Made by a program: the position numbers and the translations under genes
The notes under the pieces: model-generated
What the model saw: the letters and a program-made list of their open reading frames with translations, nothing else
Told to the model about the DNA's origin: nothing
The model's database searches: none
Origin: Myxococcales bacterium
GTDB lineage: Bacteria > Myxococcota > Myxococcia > Myxococcales > JAJYLH01
Reading direction: 5' to 3'
Assembly (NCBI GenBank): GCA_021787845.1
Contig: JAJYLH010000045.1
Coordinates: 1-50,700, forward strand
Length of the DNA: 50,700 bases
Shown: positions 17,143-50,700 of the stretch, one piece after another
How the letters are laid out: the number at the start of each line of letters is the position of its first letter
Numbering within the stretch: the first letter of the stretch is position 1

Positions 17143-17821
17143 GCGGCCGGACACCACCCGGCGCTCGCTTACGCTCCTGCCCGGCGACGGAGGGGCCTCG
17201 CCCGGCTCCGGCCGAGACCGCTCCCGCTCTGCCCGGACCCAGACCCCGGCGGCGCAGCCGAGAACCGGCGCCGCTGATGCTCTCCGATCGACGCGACTCG
17301 GCGCCGGTCCTGCCCACCATGAGCGCGGCCACGGCTAAGTAGGCATGGCCGTCGTTCTGGTTCAGCGCAGGTTATTCTCCTGTGGCACGGGCGTCCTCGC
17401 CCGTGAGTGCCTGGCCGATACACCATGCCAGGAGATCCCGCTGGCCTTCCACGGGCCGGGATGCCACAAGTGAATGGGGCGACCCCGCTGCTGCTCAACT
17501 TCGCGCCCAGGCTCTCGTCCCCCCGACCAACGTTCCTCCTCCGGGGAGACACCGGAAGCGGTCATGCGGCGCCGCTGCTGCTCTGCGTCCGCGCGGAAGC
17601 TGAGTCATGGCGGTCGACAGTCCTCCTCAGCCGCCGGCCGTTGTTCGGCGGCCCGCCGACGAAGGGCCCCATCGCCGCGACTCGCCACGCGGCGACACCG
17701 ACGATGAGGCGTCCTCCCCTTCAGATCCGGGCGATTCCCGCGGCGACTTGCAGGCCTCGACCACGGGCTTGCGTCGCCCATCCAACCGTGGTACCAGACT
17801 TCCTTCGATAGGAGGTTCTCG
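17143..17821. other. Gene-free stretch with a hairpin repeat
   Basis: About 680 bp without a convincing gene. At 17360-17406 lies a copy of the GGCACGGGCGTCCTCGCCCG hairpin family, preceded by its usual GTTCAGCGCAG leader. A 72-codon plus-strand frame (17607-17825) overlaps the next start codon in ATGA, but its Pro/Arg/Asp-rich product looks like random GC-rich translation and has no ribosome site; it is recorded only as a possibility. A strong AGGAGG lies at the right end, serving the next gene. Confidence 0.5.
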
Positions 17822-25835: not shown

Positions 25836-25977
25836 TTAATCGTTGCGAAAGTATCTGCACCTCGCATCATCGGTCGTGGCACGGCGTCCCCGCCCGTGTA
25901 GCATTCGTTGTGGCTTTCACAGGCGAGGACGCCTGTGCCACGAGACCCCGACCGCAACTGCTTTCGCAACGATTAAT
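25836..25977. repeat. Inverted-repeat cassette with TTAATCGTTGCGAAAG ends
   Basis: Perfect 16-bp terminal inverted repeats bound a 142-bp unit whose interior is an inverted pair of the GGCACGGGCG / CGCCTGTGCCACG hairpin family. No flanking duplication is evident. Non-coding; located downstream of the giant Ig-like lipoprotein gene. Confidence 0.65.
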
Positions 25978-32462: not shown

Positions 32463-32518
32463 GCGCCGAGGCCGCTGTCCCGACATCGGGTTCCCCACCC
32501 GCCAGAGACCGTGGCCTG

Positions 32519-33091
32519 TCGCCTTCGTTCGGGTTCGGCGCAGATTCTTCTCCCGGGGCACGGGCGTCCTTGCTCGTGGAGACTCGGGACCTGCCATTCC
32601 GCGGGTTCGGTTCTCCTTCCCCAGGGGGGGTCGGGTGGCTGTCGCCAAGTAGGACGGGCGGTCCCGGAGCCCGCAGGGCTTCGGGCTGCCCGTTGTTCCA
32701 GAGCGAATGTGTGTGGGGGCAGGCCGATGTCGCTCGAGTCGTCTGGAAGATCCGGAACGATCGCTCTTGGACGGACCATGCTTGTCCGGTTCACACACCT
32801 GTGATGGTCATTGGGCTCGAGCCGCGCGGCGTTAGCCCGCGGTTTCGGCGGCTGCTGCGGGCTGACGCCACGTGGCTCAAGCCATCCGATGCCCGCAAGT
32901 GCATCAACCGATAGGCATGGGACGGACAGCCCCAGAGCGCGAAGAACCGCGCTCGACGGGACTGTCCATCCTACTGGCCTCTACTGCACCGCGCTTACGA
33001 AATCCGTTGCCGTTCATCGACAGGGAAAACACACACCCGGGAGGCCCGTGTCACGGTCGAAGGACCCGCGCCGCAACCCGAACGAAGGCGA
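32519..33091. repeat. Repeat-packed convergent intergenic region with outer inverted arms
   Basis: Arms TCGCCTTCGTTCGGGTT (from 32519) and AACCCGAACGAAGGCGA (to 33091) enclose a GGCACGGGCGTCC hairpin copy, a TCCAGAGCGA copy, the MITE-like element at 32777-32919 and a second GGACAGTCC-type unit. The same outer arm bounds the cassette inside the kinase gene. The left arm lies inside the region just after the histidine phosphatase stop (32462). No gene is seen from 32463 to 33226. Confidence 0.6.
32777..32919. mobile_element. MITE-like element with CATG ends and exact 8-bp target duplication
   Basis: The 143-bp element starts CATGCTTGTCCGGTTCAC and ends GTGCATCAACCGATAGGCAT plus G; the ends pair imperfectly. 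It is flanked by GGACGGAC on both sides (32769-32776 and 32920-32927). Its interior is an inverted pair of a different repeat (GGCTCGAGCCGCGCGGCGTT / GACGCCACGTGGCTCAAGCC). It has no coding capacity. Same end type as the elements at 8731 and 42462, but a different interior. Confidence 0.8.
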
Positions 33092-33112
33092 TGCCCCTCG
33101 ACCCAGACCAAT

Positions 33113-46327: not shown

Positions 46328-46375
46328 CCGTAGAACGGTTTCCCGATAGGGCCTGTGCAGGCGACGCCCGCCAAA

Positions 46376-46626
46376 CTTGGAGCCGGACACGTCAGTGTCC
46401 GGGTTGGGCATGGCCTCTCGCGTCAACTTGGAGCCGGACACGTCGGTGTCCGGGTTGGGCATGGCCTCTCGCGTTAACTTGGAGCCGGACACGTCAGTGT
46501 CCAGGTTGGGCATGGCCTCTCGCCGCTCGTCGAGTCTTCTTGCGTCCGATCCGGAAATCTGAGGTGTAGTCCTTGCGACCGGCGAATGCCCTGCCAGTAC
46601 CCGGACACTTCCGTGTCCGGCTCCAT
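46376..46626. repeat. Three tandem 51-bp repeats of the GGAGCCGGACAC family plus an inverted copy
   Basis: Units starting TTGGAGCCGGACACGT recur at 46376, 46427 and 46478, with TGTCCGGGTTGGGCATGGCC in each. An inverted copy (ACCCGGACACTTCCGTGTCC) lies at about 46600-46626. The period equals 17 codons, so the upstream frame of the SUMF1-like gene passes through it unbroken. It is judged non-coding. No gene lies from 46328 to 46698. Confidence 0.75.
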
Positions 46627-46698
46627 GTCTCGCCCACGGCTCGCCAAGATTTCGTTGGAGAGCCCGAAGACCAGCGTGGGAGCGATGGCTCGAGAGCG

Positions 46699-47520: not shown

Positions 47521-47538
47521 GTGCAGCGCCAGAGATCT

Positions 47539-47618
47539 CCGCTCATCCCGAGCGCAGTCGAGGGATGGGCGCCCCCGCGAAGGCCCGCTCGTTCCTCGAC
47601 TGCGCTCGGAATGAGCGG
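47539..47618. repeat. Hairpin repeat CCGCTCATCCCGAGCGCAGT family
   Basis: About 25-bp arms, almost perfect reverse complements, around a 30-bp spacer (one changed base in the right arm). A second copy forms the interior of the MITE-like element at 42462-42625. It lies between the kinase and TPR genes and supplies the untranslated part of an artificially long frame. Confidence 0.7.
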
Positions 47619-47674
47619 TCACGGTCTTTCGCATCGGCATGGAATCTGTGTCGGACAGGAATGCTCCGGTTGCT

Positions 47675-49441
47675 TCAATTGAACCGCGTAAACGCATGGG
47701 GTGGTTCCTGCTTCGGCGCCTTCTGATGTCTCGCCGCGGGCCGGTGCTCGTTCTCGCGCCGCGCGGCCTCGGCCGGGTGGGGCGCGGCCAGCCGGCGCTT
47801 GTGCTGATGCTCCGGTCTCGTTGTCACCGCAGCGGTTGCCAGTGCGGGCGATGGTTTCGCGGCAGCGGGCGGGACCGGCGCGGACGTGACCGCGGTTGAC
47901 GGCGCGGGCACGGGTGCGGGGCGAGCCGGCGCCGGAGTCGCGACCCGCGGGTGAATCGGTTTCGCGTGCTCGCTCGACCACAACGGATGCGTCAGGACCG
48001 CGGCGAGGCCCAGCCCGGCGATTGCCACCAGCGCCGCGATCACGATGATCCGGGAGCGCTTTCGTTCAGGTTCGGGTCCGGCTCCCGTTCTCTTGTGGCG
48101 CAGGCGTCCCCGCCTGTGGAAGGCGGGTTCTCCTCCCAGGGCACGGGCTTCCCGGCCCGTGAAACCAGCGCTGCCTTCCACGGGCGAGGACGCCCGTGCC
48201 ACAGGAGGAGATCCCACAGGGGAAGAACCCGCGCTGGGTCTGAACGAAGGCGACACCACCTCCTCGGTGATCTTTTCAGCCGGCTCGGCGGGCGCGGTCT
48301 TCTTCGGCGGCGGGCCGACCATCCGGCGGTCGGCGAGCGACTCCTCCAGCGCGCGGCGCATCTCGTCCGCGGTCTGGAATCGATCCTCCGGGCGCTTGGC
48401 GAGAGCCTTCTCGACCGCCTCGATGAGCGCCTGGGGCAGCGGCTGCGACGCGACCTCCGCCAGCGGCGGCGGTGCCTTGCCGATCTGCATCAGGATGGTC
48501 TCGGCCGAGTTCTCCGCGTCGAACGGCAGCTTCCCGGCCAGCATCCGGTACGCCATGATGCCCACGGAGTAGATGTCGCTGCGGCCGTCGACCTTGTGCC
48601 CCCGCGCCTGCTCCGGCGACATGTACCGCGGCGTGCCGATGGCGAGCCCCGTGCGCGTCAGGCTCTTCTCCAGCTCGCCGGTGAACTTCGCGACCCCGAA
48701 GTCGATGACCTTCACGTAGTCGGTCTCGCCGAACATGTCGACGATGAAGATGTTCCCCGGCTTCAGGTCGCGATGGACGATGCCGTGGGCGTGCGCCTCG
48801 GCGAGCGACGTGAGCACCTGCCCGAGGATGTGGACCACGCGCGCGGGCGGGAGCGCGGGCGTCACGCGCAGCACCGTGCCGAGCGGCCGGCCCCGCAGGA
48901 ACTCCATCGCCATGTACAGCGACCCGTCGTCGATCTGCCCGAAGTCGTAGACGCGGACCGTGTGCGCCCCCTGGAGCAGGCACGACGCCTTGGCCTCGGC
49001 GTGGAAGCGCTGCACCTGGGAGGTGTCGGTCGCCATCTCGCGCCGGAGCACCTTCACGGCGATGTCGTTGTGCGTCGCGACGTGAACCGCGCGATAGACC
49101 GCGCCGAAACCGCCCTGGCCGACCCGCGAAACGATGCGGTAGCGGTCGCCGATGACGAGCCCGGGGCGGAGGCCCGGCGCGTCCACGACCTTGATGTAGG
49201 TCGGCGTGCCGTCGTGCGGACAGATCTTGTGCTCGGTGGCGAGCGAGCACGCCGGGCAGATCCGATCCGGACCGGCAGCGGGCATCTCGGCGGGCGGAAG
49301 CGGTTCCTCGGGCGGGCGAAGCCTCTCGACGGACGTGTCCCCGTCCTTGACGCAGGTCGGCGTGCCGTCGTGCGGACAGACGTCGTCCGCGGTGGCGAGC
49401 GAGCAGGTCGGACAAATCCGATTCGGAGCAGCAACAGCCAT
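47675..49441 (-). CDS. Ser/Thr protein kinase with twin zinc ribbons and a membrane anchor
   Basis: The 588-residue kinase begins with two related zinc-ribbon-like motifs (CPTCSLATADDVCPHDGTPT at 10-29 and CPACSLATEHKICPHDGTPT at 62-81). The Hanks-type kinase domain spans about 100-365: G-loop GQGGFGAVY, Lys130 in AVKVL, catalytic HRDLKPGN (Asp225), DFG (247-249), GTPRYMSPEQ and DIYSVGIMAYRMLAG. A repeat-derived segment (residues about 397-462) leads to one transmembrane helix (RIIVIAALVAIAGLGLAAVL), then a Pro/Ala-rich tail ending in basic residues. The tail would face outside. It precedes the TPR protein gene. Targets unknown. Confidence 0.93.
   Translation of the reverse strand: MAVAAPNRICPTCSLATADDVCPHDGTPTCVKDGDTSVERLRPPEEPLPPAEMPAAGPDRICPACSLATEHKICPHDGTPTYIKVVDAPGLRPGLVIGDRYRIVSRVGQGGFGAVYRAVHVATHNDIAVKVLRREMATDTSQVQRFHAEAKASCLLQGAHTVRVYDFGQIDDGSLYMAMEFLRGRPLGTVLRVTPALPPARVVHILGQVLTSLAEAHAHGIVHRDLKPGNIFIVDMFGETDYVKVIDFGVAKFTGELEKSLTRTGLAIGTPRYMSPEQARGHKVDGRSDIYSVGIMAYRMLAGKLPFDAENSAETILMQIGKAPPPLAEVASQPLPQALIEAVEKALAKRPEDRFQTADEMRRALEESLADRRMVGPPPKKTAPAEPAEKITEEVVSPSFRPSAGSSPVGSPPVARASSPVEGSAGFTGREARALGGEPAFHRRGRLRHKRTGAGPEPERKRSRIIVIAALVAIAGLGLAAVLTHPLWSSEHAKPIHPRVATPAPARPAPVPAPSTAVTSAPVPPAAAKPSPALATAAVTTRPEHQHKRRLAAPHPAEAARRENEHRPAARHQKAPKQEPPHAFTRFN
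48057..48252. repeat. Palindromic cassette inside the kinase coding region
   Basis: Outer arms CGCTTTCGTTCAG and CTGAACGAAGGCG (12 of 13 pair) bound a 196-bp unit. It includes an inverted pair of the GGCACGGGCGTCC / CGCCTGTGG hairpin family plus a third CACGGGCTTCCCGGCCCGTG hairpin. The unit is translated in frame as a basic, Arg/Ser/Pro-rich linker (VARASSPVEG, GREARALGG, HRRGRLRHKR) between kinase domain and membrane helix. Confidence 0.75.
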
Positions 49442-49786: not shown

Positions 49787-49910
49787 CCCTCGCGCTCGCC
49801 CTTCGAGGCCCGCGCATGCTTGCCGTGCTCCATTCATGCTCCGTGGGCGCGGGCACCTCAGGGTGAGCGGATCGGGGACCAAGACACCTGAGGTGTCTGG
49901 ATACCCAGTC
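49787..49910 (+). repeat. 124-bp repeat, left arm of a perfect inverted pair
   Basis: Identical to the reverse complement of 50577-50700 over 124 bp by direct reading. It contains its own small palindrome (ACACCTGAGGTGT) and is immediately followed by CAACCGGATGGGCATG, the right end of the CATG-type family. It is non-coding on both strands, though short frames cross it. Confidence 0.85.
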
Positions 49911-49933
49911 AACCGGATGGGCATGGAATCAAG

Positions 49934-50571: not shown

Positions 50572-50576
50572 GCCGT

Positions 50577-50700
50577 GACTGGGTATCCAGACACCTCAGG
50601 TGTCTTGGTCCCCGATCCGCTCACCCTGAGGTGCCCGCGCCCACGGAGCATGAATGGAGCACGGCAAGCATGCGCGGGCCTCGAAGGGCGAGCGCGAGGG
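50577..50700 (-). repeat. 124-bp repeat, right arm of a perfect inverted pair
   Basis: Exact reverse complement of 49787-49910. It runs to the right edge of the window, so the true repeat may be longer. With its partner it encloses a 666-bp region holding the MITE-like element and the 43-bp array. Confidence 0.85.

Follow-up and report, generated by a model that had tools for sequence, protein, structure and literature searches.

Introduction

Palindromic repeats inserted in frame into unrelated genes have been described as Rickettsia palindromic elements (RPEs; Ogata et al. 2000, 2002), for which a review reports a conserved peptide and many genic copies (PMC10969869). REPs tagged with GTAG or CGTC also occur inside open reading frames of many species, where they are present as singles, dimers or clusters encoding 20-82 residues (PMC3733652). 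MITEs of Coxiella and other bacteria contribute to ORFs as well (PMC5896051, PMC10969869). Members of the IS1595 family usually make 8-bp target duplications (PMC8101967).

Here we describe a repeat within a Ser/Thr kinase gene in a 50,700-nucleotide stretch of DNA (the window) from a Myxococcales bacterium; all genome data come from one draft assembly. The repeat resembles the RPEs in that short palindromic sequences lie in frame in unrelated genes (222 bp added to the kinase, 192 bp added to a gene on contig C94) and add predicted protein sequence. Unlike the RPEs, it appears to be a MITE, with terminal inverted repeats (TIRs), 8-bp duplications and a candidate parent IS resident in the same genome, and it encodes no conserved peptide: of the two genic copies present in the sampled DNA, each is read in a frame of its own. 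It differs from the intragenic GTAG/CGTC REPs in its core tag, GTGG, and in having TIRs and 8-bp duplications; no link to a RAYT was found. With the IS1595 family and the MITEs derived from it the repeat shares 8-bp duplications and a candidate parent carrying Zn_ribbon_IS1595 and DDE_Tnp_IS1595 (PMC8101967), whereas the kinase copy is filled with REP hairpins and occupies a gene without disturbing its frame. The MITEs of Coxiella and other bacteria likewise contribute to coding sequence but belong to different element families and hosts. In-frame insertion of a MITE or REP is already known; what is unusual here is mainly that one finds together a candidate parent IS, a known duplication length, a second genic copy and absence from relatives. 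A literature search of partial coverage returned no report of IS1595 MITEs in myxobacteria.

Results

The ORF list gives the kinase a length of 588 aa, encoded by the minus strand at 47675-49441. Its predicted product consists of two zinc-ribbon-like motifs, a Pkinase domain, a linker, a membrane helix and a Pro/Ala-rich tail. A Pfam profile search assigned residues 101-358 to Pkinase (PF00069, E 1.6e-46), and in an alignment of 19 kinases residues K130, H223-R224-D225, N230 and D247-F248-G249 are invariant, the catalytic residues of this kinase being intact. The region coding for the membrane helix, IIVIAALVAIAGLGLAAVL, lies at 47993-48049 (minus strand), directly after the insert. The N-terminus (window 49195-49417) contains two tandem CPxC...CPHDGTPT zinc-ribbon-like units, of which a paralogue on contig C141 has one. 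The intergenic stretch that follows the kinase contains, at window 47530-47625, a palindrome of another family (GCTCATCCCGAGCGCAGTCGAGGGATGG... / ...CCTCGACTGCGCTCGGAATGAGC), which would form an N-terminal extension of the next gene if the long start were used and is not found in the paralogous protein.

An earlier note on this DNA had flagged 48057-48252 as a unit of an intergenic hairpin family that is in frame with the kinase and forms linker joining the catalytic domain to the membrane helix. This 196-bp segment, used as a query, gave 81 matches in its own genome (6.24 Mb, 153 contigs), and further family members are present in the window at 17349-17478, 25878-25945, 32519-32610 and 33040-33097. 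The kinase hairpin is therefore no chance palindrome. A scan that used only the TIRs recovered the kinase copy as a single 214-bp element, 48048-48261, with 6 and 4 mismatches of 22, which places its ends among the most degenerate of the set. Together with the open frame, this bears out the position that the note had given to the unit. We delimit the presumed MITE as 48051-48264 (no strand assigned), between two copies of a presumed target duplication, CGATGATC at 48043-48050 and CGGTGATC at 48265-48272 (neither assigned a strand), which match at 7/8 positions and lie 222 bp apart. Each half of the duplication is displaced by 3 bp from its usual offset, and the pair keeps to the diagonal that the other copies predict.

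The element has degenerate TIRs and three REP-like hairpin units. The left TIR, CGGGAGCGCTTTCGTTCAGG (48051-48070, plus strand), would encode ERKRSR before the helix when read on the minus strand, and the right TIR, CTGAACGAAGGCGACACCACCT (48240-48261, minus strand), would encode VVSPSFR, also on the minus strand. Between them lie an exact match to the REP-like core, GTGGCACGGGCGTCCTCGCCCGTG (48179-48202, minus strand), with the predicted translation VARASSPV; a second, variant hairpin recognised from the sequence, GGGCACGGGCTTCCCGGCCCGTG (48139-48161, plus strand); and a third, recognised from the sequence and its match to itself, GTGGCGCAGGCGTCCCCGCCTGTGGAAGGC (48095-48124, plus strand). The stretch 48125-48215 is self-complementary at 78%.

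Measured from one presumed duplication copy to the other, the kinase gene gains a net 222 bp, or 74 codons, in frame and open. When these 222 bp are taken out, the kinase reads ...KKTAPAEPAEK-IIVIAALVAIAGLGLAAVL... (PAEPAEK-IIVIAALVAIAG, PAEPAEK-IIVIAALVA), an open junction that puts one lysine immediately ahead of the membrane helix. Compared with this emptied version, the kinase probably has about 74 additional amino acids immediately ahead of that helix; the proposal of the earlier note that the repeat encodes linker is supported, and its figure of about 65 residues was slightly too low. The predicted translation of the insert region includes the stretch ITEEVVSPSFRPSAGSSPVGSPPVAR and ends in the strongly basic residues HRRGRLRHKRTGAGPEPERKRSR, which adjoin the helix start IIVIAALVA, in agreement with the claim that the unit adds basic residues next to the membrane. 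By hand count the net charge of the insert is about +7, mostly within the last 25 residues. The GC content at codon positions 1, 2 and 3 is 0.69/0.69/0.65 in the insert, compared with 0.70/0.48/0.93 in the gene before it and 0.75/0.63/0.80 after it. Such flat values are the composition of non-coding DNA sitting in a coding frame. Downstream of the insert the frame agrees with that of the paralogue up to the C-terminal end (FTRFN vs FQPFN).

Complete copies of the family have TIRs of ~23 bp, AAGGGGTATCNCCTTCGTTCAGG, with direct repeats of 8 bp outside them. The TIR pattern has 38 matches genome-wide, compared with 0 for a reversed-pattern control. The duplication is perfect (8/8) in 7 of the 12 other complete copies and reaches at least 7/8 in 9 of them, while among 156 mismatched pairs of left and right flanks none reaches 8/8 and 8 reach 7/8. 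The scan with TIRs alone, which is independent, yielded 20 paired elements including the kinase copy; 9 of the 20 have 8/8 duplications, elements with other interiors among them. Same-ended elements with other interiors on C84, C103 and C127 have direct repeats of 7/8 or 8/8. Since these also carry direct repeats, what moves is set by the ends, the REP-like hairpins being cargo. Such TIRs and duplications are what transposition leaves behind; a static hairpin would not show them.

Family elements are mostly about 150-230 bp long and contain no transposase; 102 matching pieces were found genome-wide, and the REP-like core has 265 matches (131 + 134) at no more than 2 mismatches. The family thus combines what characterises a MITE, namely TIRs, a target duplication of fixed length (8 bp), short multi-copy elements that lack a transposase, and a same-ended candidate for the autonomous partner. 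The support from the 8-bp duplication is family-wide; that of the kinase copy alone (7/8) is supportive, not decisive. The hairpin family of the earlier note is indeed a repeat family, which can now be specified, in all probability, as an IS1595-type MITE with 8-bp target duplications.

Related structures were also observed. In the window, 32511-33099 is a 589-bp stretch between degenerate TIRs of the same family, carrying half a hairpin unit towards either end and direct repeats that match at 6/8; it is possibly a larger or nested relative of the element. A second family of near-identical repeats, ~215 bp long, has the same REP-like core dimer and different outer arms (L089, L095, L097, L098, L100, around 1420-1665). 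Several of its copies sit within another palindrome (CTTCGACTGCGCTCAG...), which suggests a site-preferring nested insertion. At window 46370-46630, repeated palindrome copies with the translation MPNPDTDVSGSKLTREA precede a formylglycine-enzyme-like gene in an extended open frame. Finally, 49787-49911 and 50576-50700 form a perfectly complementary inverted repeat of 125 bp, the second arm of which runs to the very last base of the contig; a repeat is probably where the assembly breaks off.

A 1,064-bp element at G000:C83:80461-81524 is bounded by TIR matches at C83:80461 and C83:81500 and flanked on both sides by CAAACCAG, a perfect 8-bp duplication. Its open frame of ~310 codons matches DDE_Tnp_IS1595 (1.5e-31) and Zn_ribbon_IS1595 (1e-13), so that the candidate parent transposase has the IS1595 catalytic domain together with an N-terminal zinc ribbon. 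The 8-bp duplications found here agree with the habit of the IS1595 family (PMC8101967). As judged from sequence features, this IS1595-family insertion sequence is likely to be the parent of the repeat family. Its ends and duplication length, which the repeats share, suggest that its transposase may mobilise them, and would make the kinase copy a non-autonomous IS1595-type element, that is, a MITE with a REP-like hairpin interior.

The DNA of the C141 paralogue is 79% identical to that of the kinase until ~50 bp ahead of the element, which the paralogue lacks. The kinase and the TPR-like gene that follows it are duplicated there as a two-gene unit (G000:C141:13000-21000, L147). From the DRF motif to the helix the paralogue has 115 residues and the kinase 112, and the DNA of the paralogue linker shows no similarity to the element above that of shuffled sequences. 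On the latter ground we rejected the possibility that the C141 linker is an older copy of the element. The linker being similar in total length and unrelated in sequence, the paralogue is not a clean empty site. Among homologues the distance from the DRF motif to the helix ranges from 37 to 298 residues, a range that includes the 38 residues deduced for the kinase before insertion.

The earlier note had held that a segment shared by orthologues in distant species would be ancestral protein sequence. Such sharing was looked for and not found: the full element was not detected in 98 other genomes of the order, and the hairpin core was all but missing from the rest of the class (146 genomes), in which 3 stray matches fell in 2 genomes, the relatives compared including no other genome of the host's family. 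When the kinase itself was searched for in other genomes, the best matches had ~40% identity, homology usually stopping close to where the kinase domain ends.

Spread of the family into genes, as the note had claimed, is further supported by a second complete in-frame copy, at C94:3488-3671. It lies within a multi-helix, PMT_2-matching membrane glycosyltransferase-like gene, to which it adds 192 bp, or 64 codons, with a 6/8 duplication. A tandem paralogue beside this gene aligns on both flanks and has a clean gap at the element, and from these alignments C94 is the cleaner genic case of the two. This insertion, too, adjoins a membrane helix. The core would be translated as GTGVLARE in C94, compared with VARASSPV in the kinase; the frames are different and there is no common peptide, which argues against a selected peptide. 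In a census of ~0.77 Mb, chosen around known copies and forming part of the 6.24-Mb genome, two copies alone, those in the kinase and in C94, are flanked on either side by sequence of coding composition in one and the same open frame. Other copies are surrounded by long open frames that do not have coding composition, and were not counted as genic. The C94 gene (G000:C94:2895-5789, L104) contains a further in-frame stretch made of two other palindrome families (LIPSAVEG... YPDTDVSGSK), which is absent from the tandem paralogue.

Discussion

It is highly probable, in our view, that the segment arose when a MITE of IS1595 type, built internally of REP-like hairpins, transposed into the region coding for the kinase's juxtamembrane linker. 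In the proposed mechanism, a resident full-length IS1595-family transposase would act on the common ~23-bp ends and join the element to an 8-bp staggered target, and gap repair would then duplicate those 8 bp. Element and duplication would together amount to 222 bp, and one stop-free frame of the element would fall in register; as 222 is a multiple of three, the downstream helix and tail would keep their original frame. The presumed protein would gain 74 residues of basic, probably flexible linker. Given how hypervariable the linkers are in this class of kinases, the insertion is more likely to have been tolerated than to have been selected. What speaks against a MITE insertion is that the duplication at the kinase is imperfect, and that a 7/8 match is also reached by the 8 mismatched flank pairs noted above. 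The 3-bp shift of this duplication, the degeneracy of the ends and the lack of a clean empty site in the paralogue weigh on the same side.

Other origins for the segment were weighed. The interior, with its inverted GTGGCAC-hairpin units and many cores, resembles REPINs, and a Y1_Tnp ORF above the cut-off is present at C24:50422; both observations favour a REP or REPIN moved by a RAYT, which is a Y1 tyrosine transposase, over a MITE. However, the TIRs and 8-bp duplications of the complete copies match a DDE-type IS, the core tag is neither GTAG nor CGTC, and the 1.5 kb on either side of each of the two Y1_Tnp matches contains no core. For the complete element a RAYT origin is largely refuted by the duplications, and we regard it as very improbable for the segment. 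That the linker is ancestral low-complexity protein sequence, repeat-like by convergence, is hardly credible. The nearly equal length of the paralogue linker is in keeping with it, but the DNA is self-complementary and most of its length finds matches in intergenic copies, the insert frame has no GC3 bias, the paralogue linker is no more similar to it than shuffled DNA, and the other members of the order that were searched do not have the element. The TIRs and the composition of the insert refute an ancestral linker.

With a MITE insertion as the preferred reading, there is still the matter of why the element persists. It might be kept for an effect on the RNA, an mRNA hairpin slowing ribosomes or transcription and so tuning the kinase and the downstream TPR-like gene. 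The predicted hairpin of the element is strong (-122.5 kcal/mol, z = -5.5), and the order of kinase and TPR-like gene is kept at the paralogous locus; yet any family member folds in this way wherever it is located, so that structure alone is no sign of selection, and we judge such a role to be quite improbable. It is also unlikely that the insertion was selected at the protein level, a longer, charged juxtamembrane linker changing kinase activation or membrane association. The basic residues do adjoin the helix, the second in-frame copy is likewise beside a membrane helix, and the frame persists despite the degenerate ends, but the variability of the linkers, the use of different frames by the two insertions with no peptide in common, and the lack of codon adaptation in the insert all argue against it. 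We would give little credence to the broader proposal that IS1595-type MITEs with REP hairpins are a recurrent source of in-frame basic juxtamembrane linkers in this lineage, at least one of them having been kept for altering the regulation of a membrane kinase.

The kinase and C94 genes offer an example, from beyond the Rickettsiales that supply the best-known cases, of non-coding mobile DNA becoming predicted protein sequence. Through the family, a REP-like hairpin present in high copy number is linked with a DDE transposase and not with a RAYT. With a candidate parent, a target-site rule, uninserted paralogues and a second gene in one genome, whether such insertions are tolerated or useful becomes testable in this organism.
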